NCBI RefSeq assembly: GCF_036365825.1
Contig: NZ_CP142675.1
Coordinates: 2,116,501 to 2,180,500, forward strand
Origin: Qipengyuania sp. HL-TH1
GTDB taxonomy: Bacteria; Pseudomonadota; Alphaproteobacteria; Sphingomonadales; Sphingomonadaceae
DNA: 64,000 bases
Direction: 5' to 3'
Shown: positions 58,709 through 64,000 of the stretch, piece after piece
Position numbering within the stretch: the stretch's first letter is position 1
How the letters are laid out: each line of letters starts with the position of its first letter
The notes under the pieces: generated by a model
The model's database searches: none
Told to the model about the DNA's origin: nothing
The model's input: only the letters and a program-made list of their open reading frames with translations
Translations under genes and position numbers: made by a program

Positions 58709-58877
58709 GGCAATCTTTTGCCGCACGCGCACTTTCCAGCGGCTCAAGAGGTATGGATAACCCGCTGTTAACCATGCTGCTTCACCTCCAGTGTGAACCC
58801 GTTAACCCTCGACAAACAGGGGCTTTCGCGGCATCAGCTAGGGGTGATTGCGGGGGTGGGGGTTAATCCTGGTCGCT

Positions 58878-59531
58878 TTGGTCAAAACGGTGGCCTATCT
58901 CGGGCTCGAGGCACGCAGCGTCGAAGTGCAGTGCTCGGTCGCGCCGGGTCTGCCCAAGCTCAATATCGTCGGATTGGCGGACAAGGCGGTGGGCGAAAGC
59001 AAGGAACGCGTGCGCGCCGCGCTGTCCAGCATGGGCCTTGCGCTGCCGCCCAAGCGGATCACCATCAACCTCTCACCCGCCGACCTGCCCAAGGAAGGCT
59101 CGCATTACGATCTGCCGATTGCGCTGGCGCTGCTGGCAGCGATGGGAGTGACCGATGCCGAGCAATTGGGCGACTGGATCGCGGTAGGCGAACTGGCGCT
59201 CGACGCGCGGATCGTGCCCTCGCCCGGCGTGCTACTGGCGGCGATCCACGCGAGCGAGGCGGAGGCCGGTCTGATCTGTCCACGCGCGCAAGGCTCAGAA
59301 GCGCGCTGGGCGAGCGAGATACCGGTCTGCGCCGCGCCCGACCTGGCGAGCCTGCTCAATCACCTCAAAGGCACGCAGCAACTGCCCGCCCCCGAACCCG
59401 GCGTGGTTGAAAGCGAGGTCGGCGGCGGCGACCTCAAGCAGGTCAAGGGACAGGAGACCGCCAAGCGCGCGCTCGAGATCGCGGCGGCCGGCGGGCACAA
59501 CCTCCTCAAGTACGATATAGCTACACCTTAA
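58878..59531 (+). pseudogene. comM: comM/yifB (Mg-chelatase-like AAA ATPase), truncated by island insertion
   Basis: From a TTG at 58878 the frame encodes MVKTVAYLGLEARSVEVQCS, GLPKLNIVGLADKAVGESKE and SPADLPKEGSHYDLPIALAL, the N-terminal lon-protease-like domain of ComM, then VKGQETAKRALEIAAAGGHN-LL, the lead-in to the Walker A loop. Instead of the expected MxGPPGxGKxxL, the frame runs into YDIATP and a TAA at 59529. About 60 percent of the usual 500-residue protein is missing. ComM is a hexameric helicase that promotes branch migration in natural transformation; this copy cannot bind ATP. The break is followed at once by a serine recombinase. Confidence 0.92.
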
Positions 59532-59543
59532 TCGGCTATATCG
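59513..59543. repeat. Inverted repeat at the comM/island junction, putative attL component or recombinase operator
   Basis: CGATATAGC (59513-59521), 13-base spacer, GCTATATCG (59535-59543): two perfect nine-base arms. It sits between the comM break and the recombinase start (59559, with GAGGAG upstream). Length and symmetry suit either an attachment-site arm of a large serine integrase or an autoregulatory site. Confidence 0.55.
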
Positions 59544-59558
59544 ATAAGATGAGGAGTC

Positions 59559-61169
59559 ATGGATTGCGTAGTGTATATGAGGTGGTCGAGCTCGGAACAG
59601 AGCAAAGGGTCGACCCTCGAACGCCAACGAGCGGATTGCTGGAGCCATGCGGCAGAGCAAGGTTGGCGGGTGCTCGAAGAGTTGGTCGACGACGGCATCA
59701 GCGCCTTCAAAGGTGAGCATGCCGCGACAGGCCAACTCTCCGGCTTCGTCCGAGACGTGGAGGCCGGCCGGTATCCGGAAGGGGTGATCCTGCTCTGCGA
59801 GAAGTTGGATCGGCTTTCCCGCCAGGAACCAAGCCGCGTCTTCCTGTGGATGATGAACCTCACCGAAGCGGGCGTAACCGTGGCTACGGTCGATGGGGCT
59901 CGGCGCTATTCGAAGGGCAACCTCGACATGGCTGCTATCATCGAGGTGATCGTGAAGGCGCAGCTATCCCACGAGGAATCCGAGAAGAAGAGTCAGCGCC
60001 TCGGAGCCGCCTGGGCGGCCAAGCGTCGACGCCTCTCGGCGGGCGAGAAGTTCGTCATGACGAGACGGGCTCCCGGGTGGTTGGAGGTCGTCGGTATCCC
60101 GCCACGGTTCGTACCGATCCCAGAAAGAGTGGATGTCGTGCGCCGCATCTTCGAGGAGACGGTCGCGGGATTCGGAAAGCAGCACATCGCGCGCAACCTC
60201 AATTGCGATGGCGTTCCGACTTTCGGAAGGGCTTCGGGTTGGCATGCGAGTGCGGTTCAGAAGATCCTGCGGAACCCCGCTGTCGTCGGTGAACTGCATC
60301 CGGCGACCAAGCCTCGAGGTTCGAGGAGGGAGGCTACCGGCGAGGTCGTGCAGGATTATTACCCCGTCGTCGTCGACGCCGATCTCCATAGACGGGCGGC
60401 GGCTGCGATGGCCGAGCGCTCGCGTCGTTTCACCGGCAGGGGACGACGGCTCGTCAACCTCTTCTCCGGTCTCGCCCGATGCGAGGCGTGCGGCGCCAAG
60501 ATGACCTTCCGAGGGAAGGGGCGCAAGCAGAGGGCCGACGGCAGCTGGGTGAACGAGGACTATCTCGTCTGCGATGGATACCAGAGGGGTCGGGGCTGCG
60601 ACAATCACCTTCACTACAACTACGCGGTCTGGGAGGATGGTATCCTGTCCCCAATCATCTACGAGGCGCTGCGCGAGGAGAGCTTCGCGCCGCAGGCGGA
60701 GATCCAGGAACTGGAGATCGAGGTCGCTCGTCTCGAACGGGCAAATGAGCTCGCGAGTGTTCGGACTAGGACCGCCCTCGACCTCGCCATCGAGACGGGG
60801 CGACACGAGGCGCGGTCGGCATGGACCGACCTCACCGCCAAGTCGGACGAGGCCGAAGCCGCACTGGACGCCGCTCGGGAGCGCCTTATCCGTATTCGTG
60901 GATCGCTTAGCGTGGAGGAACAGCAGGAACGTGTCCGGACCCTTCGCGCGTCTCTCGATCATCCCGACGAGGACGTGAGGTTCGAGGCGAGATCGAAGAT
61001 CAAGTCGGCCGTCCATGCGCTGGTCACCGACTTGACCTTCTCCGGCCCTGAACAGGTCGGCGTCACCATGACGGTGGGAGGCGATCGCAGGGTGTCCATA
61101 GACCACGACGAGATCAAGGGTGGGACCGAATGGATCATGGGTCGCCTCGATGGCCGACCGCTCGCCTGA
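59559..61169 (+). CDS. Large serine site-specific recombinase
   Basis: 536 residues. N-terminal resolvase domain with nucleophile Ser10 in YMRWSSSEQ, the GSTLERQ segment and LLCEKLDRLSRQEPSRV; recombinase domain (about 165-290) with FGKQHIARNLNCDGVPT and WHASAVQKILRNP; zinc ribbon (CEACGAKMTF and later two Cys near DYLVCDGYQRGRGC); then a coiled coil (about 385-470). It should catalyse island integration, and excision with a directionality factor. It is the first gene inside the comM break, the normal place for the integrase of such an element. Confidence 0.94.
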   Translation: MDCVVYMRWSSSEQSKGSTLERQRADCWSHAAEQGWRVLEELVDDGISAFKGEHAATGQLSGFVRDVEAGRYPEGVILLCEKLDRLSRQEPSRVFLWMMNLTEAGVTVATVDGARRYSKGNLDMAAIIEVIVKAQLSHEESEKKSQRLGAAWAAKRRRLSAGEKFVMTRRAPGWLEVVGIPPRFVPIPERVDVVRRIFEETVAGFGKQHIARNLNCDGVPTFGRASGWHASAVQKILRNPAVVGELHPATKPRGSRREATGEVVQDYYPVVVDADLHRRAAAAMAERSRRFTGRGRRLVNLFSGLARCEACGAKMTFRGKGRKQRADGSWVNEDYLVCDGYQRGRGCDNHLHYNYAVWEDGILSPIIYEALREESFAPQAEIQELEIEVARLERANELASVRTRTALDLAIETGRHEARSAWTDLTAKSDEAEAALDAARERLIRIRGSLSVEEQQERVRTLRASLDHPDEDVRFEARSKIKSAVHALVTDLTFSGPEQVGVTMTVGGDRRVSIDHDEIKGGTEWIMGRLDGRPLA

Positions 61170-61204
61170 CTGACTGCCGACATGTGCGTCGACACGGCCC
61201 CTCC

Positions 61205-62086
61205 CTAATCGGCAGCTCGAGCCGGGACGGGTTGGTTCCGGTCGAGGAAGCTCTGGACCATGCATGCGATTTCCATCGCATGCGTTTCGAGAGCGAAGTG
61301 GCCAGCGTCTAGGAGGTGCACCTTGGCCTCGGGCAGGTCTCTCTTGAAGGCGTCGGCCCCGGCGGGGAGGAAGGCGGGATCGTGCCTGCCCCAGACGGCG
61401 AGGAAGAGTGGCTGCCGATCGCGGAAGTAGGCCTGGAAGTCGGGGTACAGGGCCACGTTGCTCCGATAGTCGAGTATCAGATCGAGTTGCCGCTCTTCCG
61501 CACCTGGACGCGCCATGTAGGCGATGTCGAGCTCATATCCGTCAGGAGCGAGCAGCCGGCTGTCCGCTCCCGTTCCGTACTGCCAATCCCTGATGGTCTC
61601 GGGGCTTAGGCTCGGCCTGCACGCCTCGCGGTTCTCGTCGCTCGGGTCGCGCCAGTAGTCCATCCACGCCGCCCACTCTGGACTGAAGCCTTCCTCGTAG
61701 GCGTTGCCGTTCTGCGATATGATCGCAGTGATCCTTTCCGGTTGCCGCATCGCCATGCGAAAGCCGATGGGTGCCCCGTAGTCGAATACGTAGAGTGCGA
61801 AGCGGTCCAGCGACAGCTCGTCGCAGAAGCCTGTCACGACCTTCGTAAGGTTCTCGAACGTATATTCGAAACCGTCTTGCTCATCGGGCAACGTCTTTCC
61901 GAAGCCCGGCAGGTCGGGTGCTATCACCCTGTTTCTCCGGGAGAGCAGAGGAATGAGATCGCGGAACATGTGGCTCGACGACGGGAAGCCGTGAAGAAGC
62001 AGGATCACGGGCGCGTCGCTTGGGCCGGCCTCGCGGTAGAACACGTCGATACCTTCGACGTTCTGGAAATTATATCGGGTGGACAT
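61205..62086 (-). CDS. Alpha/beta hydrolase of the epoxide hydrolase/haloalkane dehalogenase type
   Basis: 293 residues from ATG 62086 with AGGAGG upstream. Oxyanion motif LLLHGFPSSSHMFRDLIP, APDLPGFGKT, and the nucleophile turn ALYVFDYGAPIGFRMA, which has Asp rather than Ser, as in epoxide hydrolases and dehalogenases. The late acid is in WGRHDPAFLP and the His in DAGHFALETHAMEI. It hydrolyses a small ester-, epoxide- or halide-type compound; the exact substrate is unknown. It is divergent from a LysR gene that probably controls it and converges on the recombinase gene. Confidence 0.9.
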   Translation of the reverse strand: MSTRYNFQNVEGIDVFYREAGPSDAPVILLLHGFPSSSHMFRDLIPLLSRRNRVIAPDLPGFGKTLPDEQDGFEYTFENLTKVVTGFCDELSLDRFALYVFDYGAPIGFRMAMRQPERITAIISQNGNAYEEGFSPEWAAWMDYWRDPSDENREACRPSLSPETIRDWQYGTGADSRLLAPDGYELDIAYMARPGAEERQLDLILDYRSNVALYPDFQAYFRDRQPLFLAVWGRHDPAFLPAGADAFKRDLPEAKVHLLDAGHFALETHAMEIACMVQSFLDRNQPVPARAAD

Positions 62087-62124
62087 GGGAAACCTCCTGT
62101 TCGACTGAGAGATGGGCATTGCAG

Positions 62125-62145
62125 ATTTCGATGGAATATCGAAAT
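62125..62145. promoter_or_regulatory. Palindromic operator between the hydrolase and LysR genes
   Basis: ATTTCGAT, five-base spacer GGAAT, ATCGAAAT: a perfect 8-bp inverted repeat containing the T-N11-A core typical of LysR-type sites. It lies in the middle of the 94-base divergent gap, so one dimer or tetramer could control both genes. Confidence 0.7.
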
Positions 62146-62180
62146 GTGGAAAGGTCACGTTTCAGGGAGCGCAACGAACG

Positions 62181-63062
62181 ATGGACAGACTGCAAGCCAT
62201 GCGGATGTTTGTCGCGATCGACGAGAGTAGGTCGCTCGCAGCCACCGCGCGCAAGCTGGGGCGCTCGCCAGCGACGTTGTCGCGAGCTTTGTCGATGCTC
62301 GAAGCCTCGGCCGGGGAACGATTGTTGGAGAGGACCACCCGGCGTCTCGCATTCACGCCCACCGGCCTGCGACACCTCGAGACCTACCGCGAGATGATAG
62401 CGATGCTCGAGGAGCTGGACGCTCCAAGGGACGGGAAGCTGGCCGGCACTGTGACCATCACTGCTCCTGAACTCTTCGGACAGCTTGTGGTCGCCCCCGC
62501 CATCCAACCCTTCAGGGACAGGCATCCGGAAGTCCTCGTTCGTCTCCTACTTCTCAATCGTCTGGTGGACCTCGTGGAGGAAGGCGTGGATCTCGCCATC
62601 AGGATCGCCGAGCCGAACGACGGCAATTTCGAGATGGTCACGTTGGGTCAGGTGGAACAGCTGACCTGCGCGTCCCCCGGATACCTCGACGACAACGGTG
62701 TTCCTGCCGTACCGGACGACCTCGACAGCCATCGCTGTATCGGCCTCAACGCGGAGGGGTTCGACGACCAATGGCGGTTCTCGATGGGCGGTCGACTCCG
62801 TTCCCGGCACGTGCGCTGCGAGGTGGCCACGAACAACGCGGGCGCTGCAATCGAATTCGCACTCCGCGGAGCAGGATTGATACGCGTCCTTTCCTACCAG
62901 GTTGAGGAGCATCTGGCTTCGGGAGCGCTCACGGAGGTACTCCGCGAATTTCGTGCGCCCCCGCTTCCGATCCAGGTCGTGCACCGGCGCCATGTTCACG
63001 ACCAGGGACTTGTGGGCGCCGTCGTCGAACATTTGGCCGGCATGATCACCGCAAGCTCCTGA
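62181..63062 (+). CDS. LysR-family transcriptional regulator
   Basis: 293 residues: N-terminal winged helix (MDRLQAMRMFVAIDESRSLA, RSPATLSRALSMLEASAGERL, LERTTRRLAFTPTG) and an effector-binding periplasmic-binding-like domain (GKLAGTVTITAPELFGQLVV onward). The pattern is that of the GcvA/AaeR-like subgroup. It probably regulates the divergent hydrolase gene through the palindrome at 62125 and may be autoregulated. The inducer is not known. Confidence 0.93.
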   Translation: MDRLQAMRMFVAIDESRSLAATARKLGRSPATLSRALSMLEASAGERLLERTTRRLAFTPTGLRHLETYREMIAMLEELDAPRDGKLAGTVTITAPELFGQLVVAPAIQPFRDRHPEVLVRLLLLNRLVDLVEEGVDLAIRIAEPNDGNFEMVTLGQVEQLTCASPGYLDDNGVPAVPDDLDSHRCIGLNAEGFDDQWRFSMGGRLRSRHVRCEVATNNAGAAIEFALRGAGLIRVLSYQVEEHLASGALTEVLREFRAPPLPIQVVHRRHVHDQGLVGAVVEHLAGMITASS

Positions 63063-63208
63063 TCCGGAAGCAGGCGATCGCTTTCGCGTGAGTTCGTCGA
63101 GCTGCGAGCGGCGAACCGATCGGGTCTTCCCCTGCGTCGATCGACCATCACTTCCCATGGGATGGCATAGCGTTTAGCCTGATCGCAACTTGGAACGAGG
63201 GGGATACG

Positions 63209-64000
63209 ATGAGGATATGCAGCCTACTGCTGTCAGTTGTCCTGCTGACTTCAGCCGGATGCACGAACCACCACGTGCAGTTCTTCTTCCCGAATACGGT
63301 CGCCGATGCGCCGGACGAGGTGCGCATCTTCATGGATGCCCGAGGAGATCTCTATCCCGACGATGGTATCGCTGCCGGATATGCCCTCCCCGACGGCTCG
63401 CACGGAAGTCTCTTCGAGGCCGCGCGCGGCGGCGACCCGGCCCTTTGTCTCGAGCCTCGGGCCGGAAGCGAGCTCGAGGAACTTTGCGACGCGGTCGACG
63501 AAGGCTGCTACGGCAGCGTCACTACAGACTGCTTCGCACGATGGCAGATGGTCCAAGAGACGATGTGGAAGAGGCGCGCGGAGCGCATCGCCGCGCGCTT
63601 CGGCGAGGACGGCAGGGACACGATCGGGGTCCTGATCTATGGTTTCAACAACTGGTTCCGCGAAAGCGACGCCAACTACGCCACGGCTGAGCGTGAGATG
63701 CGTCGCTTTCTTCCCGCTGATCGCAAGATAGGTTTCGTGGAGGTCTACTGGGACGGGTGCAGAGGCAACGACAAGGGCATAGGCTGCTGGTCACGAGCGC
63801 AGTCCACGGGGCCGCTCGCGGGGTTCGCGTTGCGCCGTCTCTTCAATGGCGTCGAGGAAGCTTGGACGACGGCGTCGGGATCTCCTTCCTGGCGTGTGCT
63901 CACTCACAGTTCGGGAGCGTTCGTCGCTGGTGCGACCTTCGGCGACCCCACGATCGCCCTTCCCCAGCTGCAGGATCCGACGACGAACCGCTGGTATGGT
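63209..64000 (+). CDS. Lipoprotein with alpha/beta-hydrolase features (3' truncated by window edge)
   Basis: Open from ATG 63209, with GAGGGGG upstream, to the end of the window: 264 codons without a stop. MRICSLLLSVVLLTSAGC is a lipoprotein signal with lipobox Cys18. Following a variable part with several cysteines, GVLIYGFNNWFRES resembles the oxyanion strand of DUF900-type hydrolases (VHGYN) and VLTHSSGAFVAG the nucleophile turn (GHSxG). It is probably an envelope-anchored esterase-like protein; the identity is uncertain. It is cargo of the comM island. Confidence 0.65.
   Translation, partial: MRICSLLLSVVLLTSAGCTNHHVQFFFPNTVADAPDEVRIFMDARGDLYPDDGIAAGYALPDGSHGSLFEAARGGDPALCLEPRAGSELEELCDAVDEGCYGSVTTDCFARWQMVQETMWKRRAERIAARFGEDGRDTIGVLIYGFNNWFRESDANYATAEREMRRFLPADRKIGFVEVYWDGCRGNDKGIGCWSRAQSTGPLAGFALRRLFNGVEEAWTTASGSPSWRVLTHSSGAFVAGATFGDPTIALPQLQDPTTNRWYG

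Follow-up and report, generated by a model that had tools for sequence, protein, structure and literature searches.

The interrupted comM gene

The DNA analysed here, referred to as the window, is a stretch of 64,000 nucleotides (G000:C2:2116501-2180500) from the genome of Qipengyuania sp. HL-TH1, which consists of two contigs and is designated G000. Close to the right end of the window, the comM gene is split by an island that begins with a gene for a large serine recombinase (LSR). The features at this junction are, in window coordinates:

58848..59504, + strand: 5′ half of comM, up to the residues ...GGHNL (Pfam ChlI and the start of Mg_chelatase)
59481..59530, + strand: attL, composed of the comM left arm (59481-59504), the dinucleotide CT (59505-59506) and the attP right arm with CTACAC (59507-59530)
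59505..64000, + strand: left 4.5 kb of the island, the rest of which lies outside the window
59559..61169, + strand: intact LSR of 536 amino acids (Pfam Resolvase 65.3 bits, Recombinase 51.4, Zn_ribbon_recom 42.1)

The open reading frame (ORF) that holds the 5′ half of comM runs from 58848 to 59531 on the + strand, and its start codon is uncertain (TTG at 58848, or one near 58878). It matches the Pfam domain ChlI at 131.6 bits and covers Mg_chelatase only at positions 1-26 of 207. The break falls in the second Leu codon of HNLLMIGPPGAGKS. Past the crossover the ORF gains eight island-encoded codons (LKYDIATP) and stops at 59531, while the LSR ORF begins 54 bp past the break. A reading of the letters of the window, the sequence-only reading, had proposed that comM is interrupted and that an LSR starts within 60 bases; the domain matches and this distance agree with it.

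The missing part of the gene lies beyond the window. The sole Mg_chelatase_C match in the whole G000 genome is found at C2:2275556-2275843 (+), and the entire 3′ half occupies 2274980-2275861 of C2 (2274992-2275864 from the crossover on), on the + strand like the 5′ half. The two halves are in order on the same strand, the 3′ half standing 98,987 bp downstream, where the sequence-only reading had suggested that it be sought; a second junction is present. The crossover is centred at window positions 59505-59506 on the left and at genome positions 2274992-2274993 on the right, which gives an island of 98,987 bp (C2:2176005-2274991). Position 64000, given earlier as the end of the feature, is merely the end of the window, and the island continues for about 94.5 kb further.

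When the flanks are joined in silico, a single open ComM frame of 509 codons plus stop results. The corresponding empty site of 301 bp was compared with intact comM loci of the genus, of which 36 were listed and 30 fetched; a junction-crossing alignment was obtained in all 30, six of them gapless. A comparison with uninterrupted strains had also been proposed beforehand. No duplication of host bases occurs at the two junctions of the G000 island. The interruption of comM and its second junction are not chance.

Loss of ComM function is expected because the N-terminal product is without the ATPase core and the C-terminal product is without the N domain. The split may also affect natural transformation, as the sequence-only reading proposed. 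ComM has been introduced as the Gram-negative counterpart of RadA (PMC11612176).

Crossover and attP symmetry

The attP site was reconstructed by comparing attL with attR in ten islands which occupy the same comM site and for which both ends are available (G000, G302, G191, G192, G319, G162, G169, G413, G354 and G400). In all ten, the best 22-nt inverted arms are found at the CT centre when offsets from -20 to +20 are considered. The palindrome is centred on bases one and two of the Leu codon in which comM breaks (CT in G000). Symmetry at the centre amounts to 12-18 of 22 positions, as against 8-11 at the best other offset; in G000 the margin is one position (12 versus 11). The G000 arms read GTGTAGCCGGACACAACCTG on the left and CAAGTACGATATAGCTACAC on the right, and the core CACAACCT is common to both sides of the island. 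The central dinucleotide is identical in attL and attR in six of the ten islands, including G000. Intact comM genes of the genus carry CT at the crossover in 20 cases and TT in nine (29 sites read from the 30 loci).

The recombinase

The domain composition, together with inverted attP arms around a 2-bp core, places the protein, as far as sequence can tell, in the large serine recombinase class. Arg8 and Ser10 are invariant in an alignment of eight LSR sequences, and we take Ser10 to be the nucleophile. The island LSR provides the only PF07508 (Recombinase) match in the G000 genome. In clade-1 arrays of the genus for which the comM N half was fetched (G000, G302, G191, G192, G413, G400, G379, G404, G412, G421 and G420; in G412 only LSR residues 1-117), the LSR starts 37-53 bp past the crossover codon. 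Among the best 20 matches listed for each of the plasmid and phage collections, relatives of the LSR share about 34% identity or less. The earlier proposal, that one LSR and not AbaR-type transposition brought a genomic island into a specific site of comM, is supported.

LSR relatives also adjoin comM at two more places: in the C half at about codon 340-350 (L081, L083-L087, L091) and near codon 40 (L019, L070, L082). One LSR family seems to have evolved several sites within this gene.

Frequency of comM interruption

Sixty genomes of the genus were compared. An uninterrupted Mg_chelatase match is present in 36, and comM is split at the LSR site in 13, three of which (G379, G412, G404) are also split at a second site. 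A further genome, G420, counted apart, retains the comM N part followed by an LSR. In four genomes the second site alone is interrupted; six others are fragmentary or without a comM match (G418, G408, G409, G416, G168, G367). At least 17 of the 60 comM genes are interrupted at the LSR site, the Walker B site or both.

Beyond the genus, an LSR relative at E<=1e-60 was found in 13 of 396 genomes sampled from the order (own genome included). A profile search of named genomes returned 53 LSR loci, a set which is biased since all eight seed enzymes abut comM and some loci represent the same genomes repeatedly. In 27 of them the LSR follows the comM N half at the same site (within 1.4 kb, mostly <60 bp). 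The remainder comprise five in which the LSR borders that site from the opposite side, seven at a third site in the C half, two near codon 40 and 12 without comM within reach. Hosts of these loci include Sphingomonas, Brevundimonas, Methylobacterium, Pelagibacterium and Pararoseomonas.

The second comM site mentioned above lies in the Walker B stretch LDELPEF and is interrupted in at least seven of the 60 genus genomes. Inserts measure 3.2-3.7 kb (L144, L145, L146, L151) or 16-18 kb (L147, L148, L149). The L146 insert encodes an IS1595-type transposase (158 bits, cut-off 75), and L144 carries a similar ORF of 317 amino acids.

An array of modules inside comM

We use PL and PR for the left and right attP arms, BL and BR for the left and right comM (attB) arms, and X for a conserved left end of modules. 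Comparison of the G000 island with itself revealed internal copies of its right-end arm. A PL weight matrix was built from six attR arms, which themselves score 31.5-34.5 bits, and internal sites were accepted at 26 bits or more. Apart from the true right ends, the matrix recovered five internal sites in G000 and four in G302; G191 and G192 have a single site apiece, and G413 and G400 lack any. Every internal site is on the + strand of its island, with arms scoring 26.9-35.7 bits, and in each X follows directly after the two core bases. The resulting boundaries in G000 are, in genome coordinates of C2:

2232542, 2233899, 2242218, 2259657 and 2267031, + strand: internal PL.CT.X sites (weight matrix)
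2207203: module boundary that has lost its PL arm and retains the X end alone (X alignment)

The internal junctions take the form PL.CT.X; one has TT at the core and one is without its PL. The order of the array is the LSR module leftmost (BL.CT.PR), then cargo modules without LSR (X...PL), and a final PL.CT.BR leading back into comM. Counted from the core, G10, C17, G18, T23 and C26 of X are invariant in 12 sequences (about eight distinct, and including the 2207203 copy without PL). Rather than a single element, the island is a series of modules delimited by LSR half-sites. The sequence-only reading had rightly seen an island at this place; as a description of one unit it is incomplete, and insertion of the whole in a single event is rejected in view of the five internal half-sites and the additional X end.

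No PL at 26 bits or more occurs in 2.06 Mb of mononucleotide-shuffled G000 and G302 islands (+ strand, GTGTA prefilter), and lowering the threshold to 14 gives four matches per shuffled-island set. In the real islands, matches of 14-17 bits fall at three attL right arms themselves and once in G413. Across the genus, the PL pattern is present in 11 of 60 genomes (own included) and its reversed control in none. X, when searched without PL, gives 25 matches in 14 of the 60 genomes (control: 3); 20 overlap exact PL matches, one, in G420, comes after a PL that deviates from the pattern at a single position, and four are without PL. With near-identical copies merged and sites closer than about 110 bp to a locus end left out, 35 distinct PL sites could be tabulated, with comM following in 10 and X in 25.

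In a family sample, the pattern PL.CT.N13.CCG was found in six of 397 genomes, from six genera (control: 0). The match in G138 is an ordinary comM right end and that in G158 is unclear; X-type junctions are clear in four genera, represented by the own genome, G174, G189 and G472. The same pattern gave no match in viral contigs, nor did a 180-bp junction query in the plasmid collection. Half-sites away from comM are present in G192 and G423.

Sharing of modules between genomes

Modules common to different species are 97-99.9% identical, against 75-79% for comM and its flanks. G000 and G302, whose comM and flanking DNA are about 75-79% identical, have in common a block of 10,898 bp at 99.89%, which extends from the PL arm of site 2232542 to 1.2 kb past site 2242218. 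In G413 the comM island measures 18,621 bp, encodes a 72%-identical LSR and has a right end identical to that of G000; the last 7.6 kb of the G000 island fall in an 11.7-kb match to G413 at 98.9%. In G189, which belongs to another genus, the body of a comM module matches the last module of G192 at 96.6% identity across 8,152 bp, and the left end of the G189 module is different. Identical right ends were not retained as proof of whole-module shuffling, since beyond 70-90 bp they are no longer alike.

The comM array of G302 closes with a module of about 21 kb, which recurs as a 21.4-kb match of about 97% identity in a second G000 array at 3.14 Mb. The copy starts at its PL.CT.X and stops 66 bp before the G302 end. 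This second array is far from comM and devoid of LSR, with PL.CT.X sites at C2:3133592 and 3144526; G413 has a one-site version at C2:1579968. The 10.9-kb unit between the two G000 sites is absent from G413, a genome of the same species.

Arrays without LSR also stand in comM. In G259, G189 and G470, the comM N half is joined to X at the same centre (BL.X), and no LSR match was found in the roughly 20 kb fetched. In the order sample G259 gave no LSR match at E<=1e-60 and G189 apparently gave none either; G470 is outside that sample. A G492 match, considered as a further case, was discarded since its sequence is not X-like. If an LSR block were excised, BL.X is what one would expect to remain in comM.

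The nature of the X end

X was compared with models of the comM and attP arms. Averaged over 19 X sequences and compared with shuffles of themselves, X scores 8 standard deviations above the mean with the comM right arm model, 7 with the attP left arm, 6 with the comM left arm and 4 with the attP right arm. At T, C, G, C, C, C and G, the X consensus C..a.tCGc.c..CCG coincides in register with the right arm of comM. The comparison is suggestive of a B-type arm.

Proposed mechanism and alternatives

Large serine recombinases carry out two textbook reactions: attP x attB, and attL x attR with a directionality factor. We consider it probable that the array in comM has grown by LSR-driven accretion, with X acting as an attB-type half-site. 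Integration of attP (PL-CT-PR) into attB (BL-CT-BR) splits comM, and exact excision would restore it. Should X serve as an attB-type half-site, BL.X would constitute a new attB, and an LSR circle (PL.PR) could integrate at BL.BR or at BL.X. With a putative directionality factor, attL (BL.PR) might recombine with any downstream PL.X, so that the LSR and the modules up to that point would be excised. The remainder would stay in comM as BL.X..., and the excised block would be free to re-insert elsewhere. Repeated cycles would stack and swap modules, though attL and attR are themselves refractory to integration. The integration site, the symmetry of attP, the layout of the array, the modules common to several species and the comM arrays with no LSR beside them are observations; the action of this LSR on BL.X and PL.X and the excision cycle are inferred.

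The cycle needs the textbook reactions plus one assumption, namely that X works as a right attB arm. It would account for the leftmost LSR, the single orientation of the PL.X sites, the failure to find an internal PR beside PL and the occurrence of BL.X. The origin of the X end, the second array and the exchange of short end segments are left unexplained by it; the last of these is likely due to homologous recombination. A broader reading is that of a serine-integrase cassette system, in which modules have an attP-type end (PL) and an attB-type end (X) and each insertion or partial excision rebuilds the integration site in comM. We hold it to be somewhat less likely than not. If true, such a system would let a one-way enzyme add, drop and exchange cargo between the arrays of different species, in functional parallel to integrons.

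Several observations weigh against the accretion account. The central dinucleotide differs between attL and attR, at its first base, in four of the ten islands (G191, G192, G319, G400), which is unusual if an LSR requires identity there. The absolute score of X is far below that of a real BR, and X beats its shuffles for both P models as well. Neither a directionality factor nor a relaxase or conjugation gene was detected, internal sites are lacking from two of the six clade-1 islands, and in the more distant G138 (L049) comM and the LSR are 1.4 kb apart. An X-like end without PL at G302:C2:277206 looks like a real X end. The CTACAC regular expression also matches once inside the G000 island without PL, which we read as chance. 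As for sharing, the 10.9-kb block of G000 and G302 ends not at a site but 1.2 kb into the next module, and identical right ends extend for only 70-90 bp beside unrelated cargo. The G189 module combines the left end of one lineage with the body of another. These short shared ends and the mixed G189 module indicate that homologous recombination also shuffles ends. In the second G000 array, which is without LSR, no outer ends were found and the 21-kb module has no right PL; PL arms and X differ there between G000 and G413, which does not correspond to a clean single-step insertion.

Other explanations were considered. Plain accretion of the kind known for cis-mobilizable elements (CIMEs) would make the modules old islands that have lost their LSR and right arm, X a leftover without att role and the whole a fossil array that moves only as one. 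A three-step CIME route is described for integrative and mobilizable elements (IMEs) and integrative and conjugative elements (ICEs) (PMC5704250), and 15 ssrA islands of Dehalococcoides that have no integration module were proposed to be 'cis-mobilizable elements' (PMC3146451). Also in its favour, the PL arm is gone from the boundary at 2207203, and a module common to G000 and G413 seems to be without its boundary in G413. However, X stays in register with CT across modules of unrelated cargo, which random deletion would not give, and it is joined to comM at the same centre in three genomes; we regard this explanation as unlikely. Capture resembling that of integrons, with the LSR inserting LSR-less circles (PL.CT.X) singly at PL.CT.BR or PL.CT.X, is in our view improbable. 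It would fit the internal sites (26 bits or more), alike in form and orientation, the module that one strain of a species has between two sites and another strain lacks, and the modules of 1.4 to 21 kb found in different arrays. Yet it needs recombination of attR with attR, a reaction which no characterised LSR is known to perform, and the shared ends are short.

PL.CT.X might also be a dispersed intergenic repeat of about 150 bp, spread by homologous recombination or another enzyme and merely resembling LSR arms. Both ends are short (70-90 bp on the PL side, about 40-90 bp on the X side), and near-identical copies stand beside unrelated DNA. PL and X are nevertheless separable exactly at the crossover (of the 35 tabulated PL sites, 10 lead into comM and 25 into X), the comM left half joins X in three genomes, and X without PL is otherwise rare (four matches versus three in the control, plus 2207203). 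We reject X as an independent dispersed repeat for this rarity, and hold the whole explanation to be very improbable. Finally, comM is a known AbaR target and another comM site in the genus carries an IS1595-type element, so that a transposon insertion of AbaR type, or an assembly artefact, deserves mention. Neither is credible to any appreciable degree: no transposase was found in the scanned proteins at either end, host bases are not duplicated, the LSR has palindromic attP arms, and comM is split at the same site in 13 of 60 separate assemblies. AbaR-type transposition is rejected on the first two counts.

Cargo of the modules

Within the window, the LSR module carries the following genes:

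61205..62158, - strand: alpha/beta hydrolase (Abhydrolase_1, 107.7 bits)
62112..63062, + strand: LysR-type regulator (LysR_substrate 109.9 bits, HTH_1 58 bits); start probably near 62182, as judged by eye
63209..64000, + strand: ORF of 417 amino acids that continues past the window to genome position 2180962; no Pfam match for the part tested

The LSR part also encodes a Tle1-like phospholipase and a helicase/nuclease (Pfam). At C2:2203281-2206066 it holds a short prokaryotic Argonaute and a DUF4365 partner of REase-APAZ type (PADLOC class I, 564.6 and 572.3 bits), a pair which resembles SPARDA. Other modules contain ABC transporters, an AddA/AddB-like pair, genes for nitrate and nitrite assimilation, and an S9 peptidase with a cyclophilin. 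AddA matches occur in 11 of 41 genomes, at 100% in the own genome and G302, 73% in G017 and 27-31% in the other eight. An 8-kb piece of the nitrate-gene region finds plasmid matches of only 60-80% identity.

Two further loci may be mentioned. An orphan gene of 341 amino acids (C2:2242270-2243295) adjoins a module X end and, by DNA similarity, lies near X ends in G191, G302, G189 and G470 as well; 26 homologues were found and no known family was matched. The stretch C2:2189693-2193935 encodes a 772-amino-acid protein, whose similarity to tyrosine recombinases is weak and does not reach the Pfam cut-off, between proteins of 159 and 483 amino acids of unknown function. With its two neighbours it possibly forms a recombinase trio.

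The scan of island proteins covered 61 proteins from 93 greedily picked ORFs of at least 70 amino acids, leaving out ORFs that cross locus borders and most short ones. Among these 61, no Pfam match at E<=1e-3 was obtained for a relaxase or type IV secretion domain, and none contains a phage structural domain, on which ground a prophage is rejected.

Comparison with known systems

Large serine recombinases are used as one-way genome-writing tools, attL and attR being inert without a directionality factor. How this one-way restriction can be bypassed would be seen in a natural system where such an enzyme seems to pile up and exchange modules at a single locus. Matched attB-like sites (BL.BR and BL.X) and a family of ~65-72%-identical enzymes would be available for testing, and a genus of free-living alphaproteobacteria (the host is marine) offers a test bed for the hypothesis that transformation genes are disabled by mobile elements.

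Staphylococcal cassette chromosome (SCC) elements likewise include integrase-less elements stacked next to an integrase-bearing one. They are defined by ccr recombinases and the target rlmH, whereas the island LSR reaches 28.7 bits with NCBIfam CcrB (cut-off 900) and the target is comM. Integrons rely on the tyrosine integrase IntI and on attI/attC sites; here a serine recombinase and boundaries made of LSR arms are found. AbaR and Tn7-type elements differ by their transposition genes, absent among the scanned end proteins, and by target duplication, equally absent.

Insertion of LSRs into comM is not new. Durrant et al. 2022 report that 12.4% of the site-specific integrases that they predicted target homologues of the Mg-chelatase/ComM gene, and that targets are enriched in DNA-competence genes (PMC10083194). 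Target gene, enzyme class and logic are the same as here; module arrays, internal half-sites and LSR-less modules are not mentioned in the excerpt of that account. In Wolbachia phage WO, itself from an alphaproteobacterium, the serine recombinase sr1WO integrates into a magnesium chelatase gene with gene parts on both sides, as here (PMC9203015, PMC5447182), but phage WO is a prophage and the island lacks phage structural domains in the proteins scanned. The earlier claim of a single serine integrase at comM in an alphaproteobacterium stands for this locus, and these reports remove its novelty. In several species comM insertions are due to other integrases (PMC4774983), and AbaR islands of Acinetobacter split the gene via transposition proteins. 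Both share with the present case a mobile element that splits comM, and differ in enzymes and genera.

Parallels to the array are found in other elements. Dehalococcoides ssrA islands are also in tandem, with a serine recombinase module at the left edge and 15 islands without integration module; their target is ssrA, and each boundary is marked by a 20-bp direct repeat of that gene, whereas PL.CT.X without target repeat is found here (PMC3146451). In ICEs, IMEs and CIMEs, too, elements without an integrase accumulate at one site next to an element that has one; there attR or direct repeats are used again, while the conserved B-like left end described here would make a new site (PMC5704250). 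Integrase-less modules with att sites do stand in tandem with an integrase element, whose LSR is at the left end. The usual CIME has attL and attR; the present modules keep PL and have X in place of PR. Judged by titles and the starts of abstracts, the open-access PMC literature gave no description of LSR half-site-bounded modules in comM. The splitting of comM by an LSR was known already, and the module array with its conserved B-like end would represent a new variant of CIME/SCC-type accretion.

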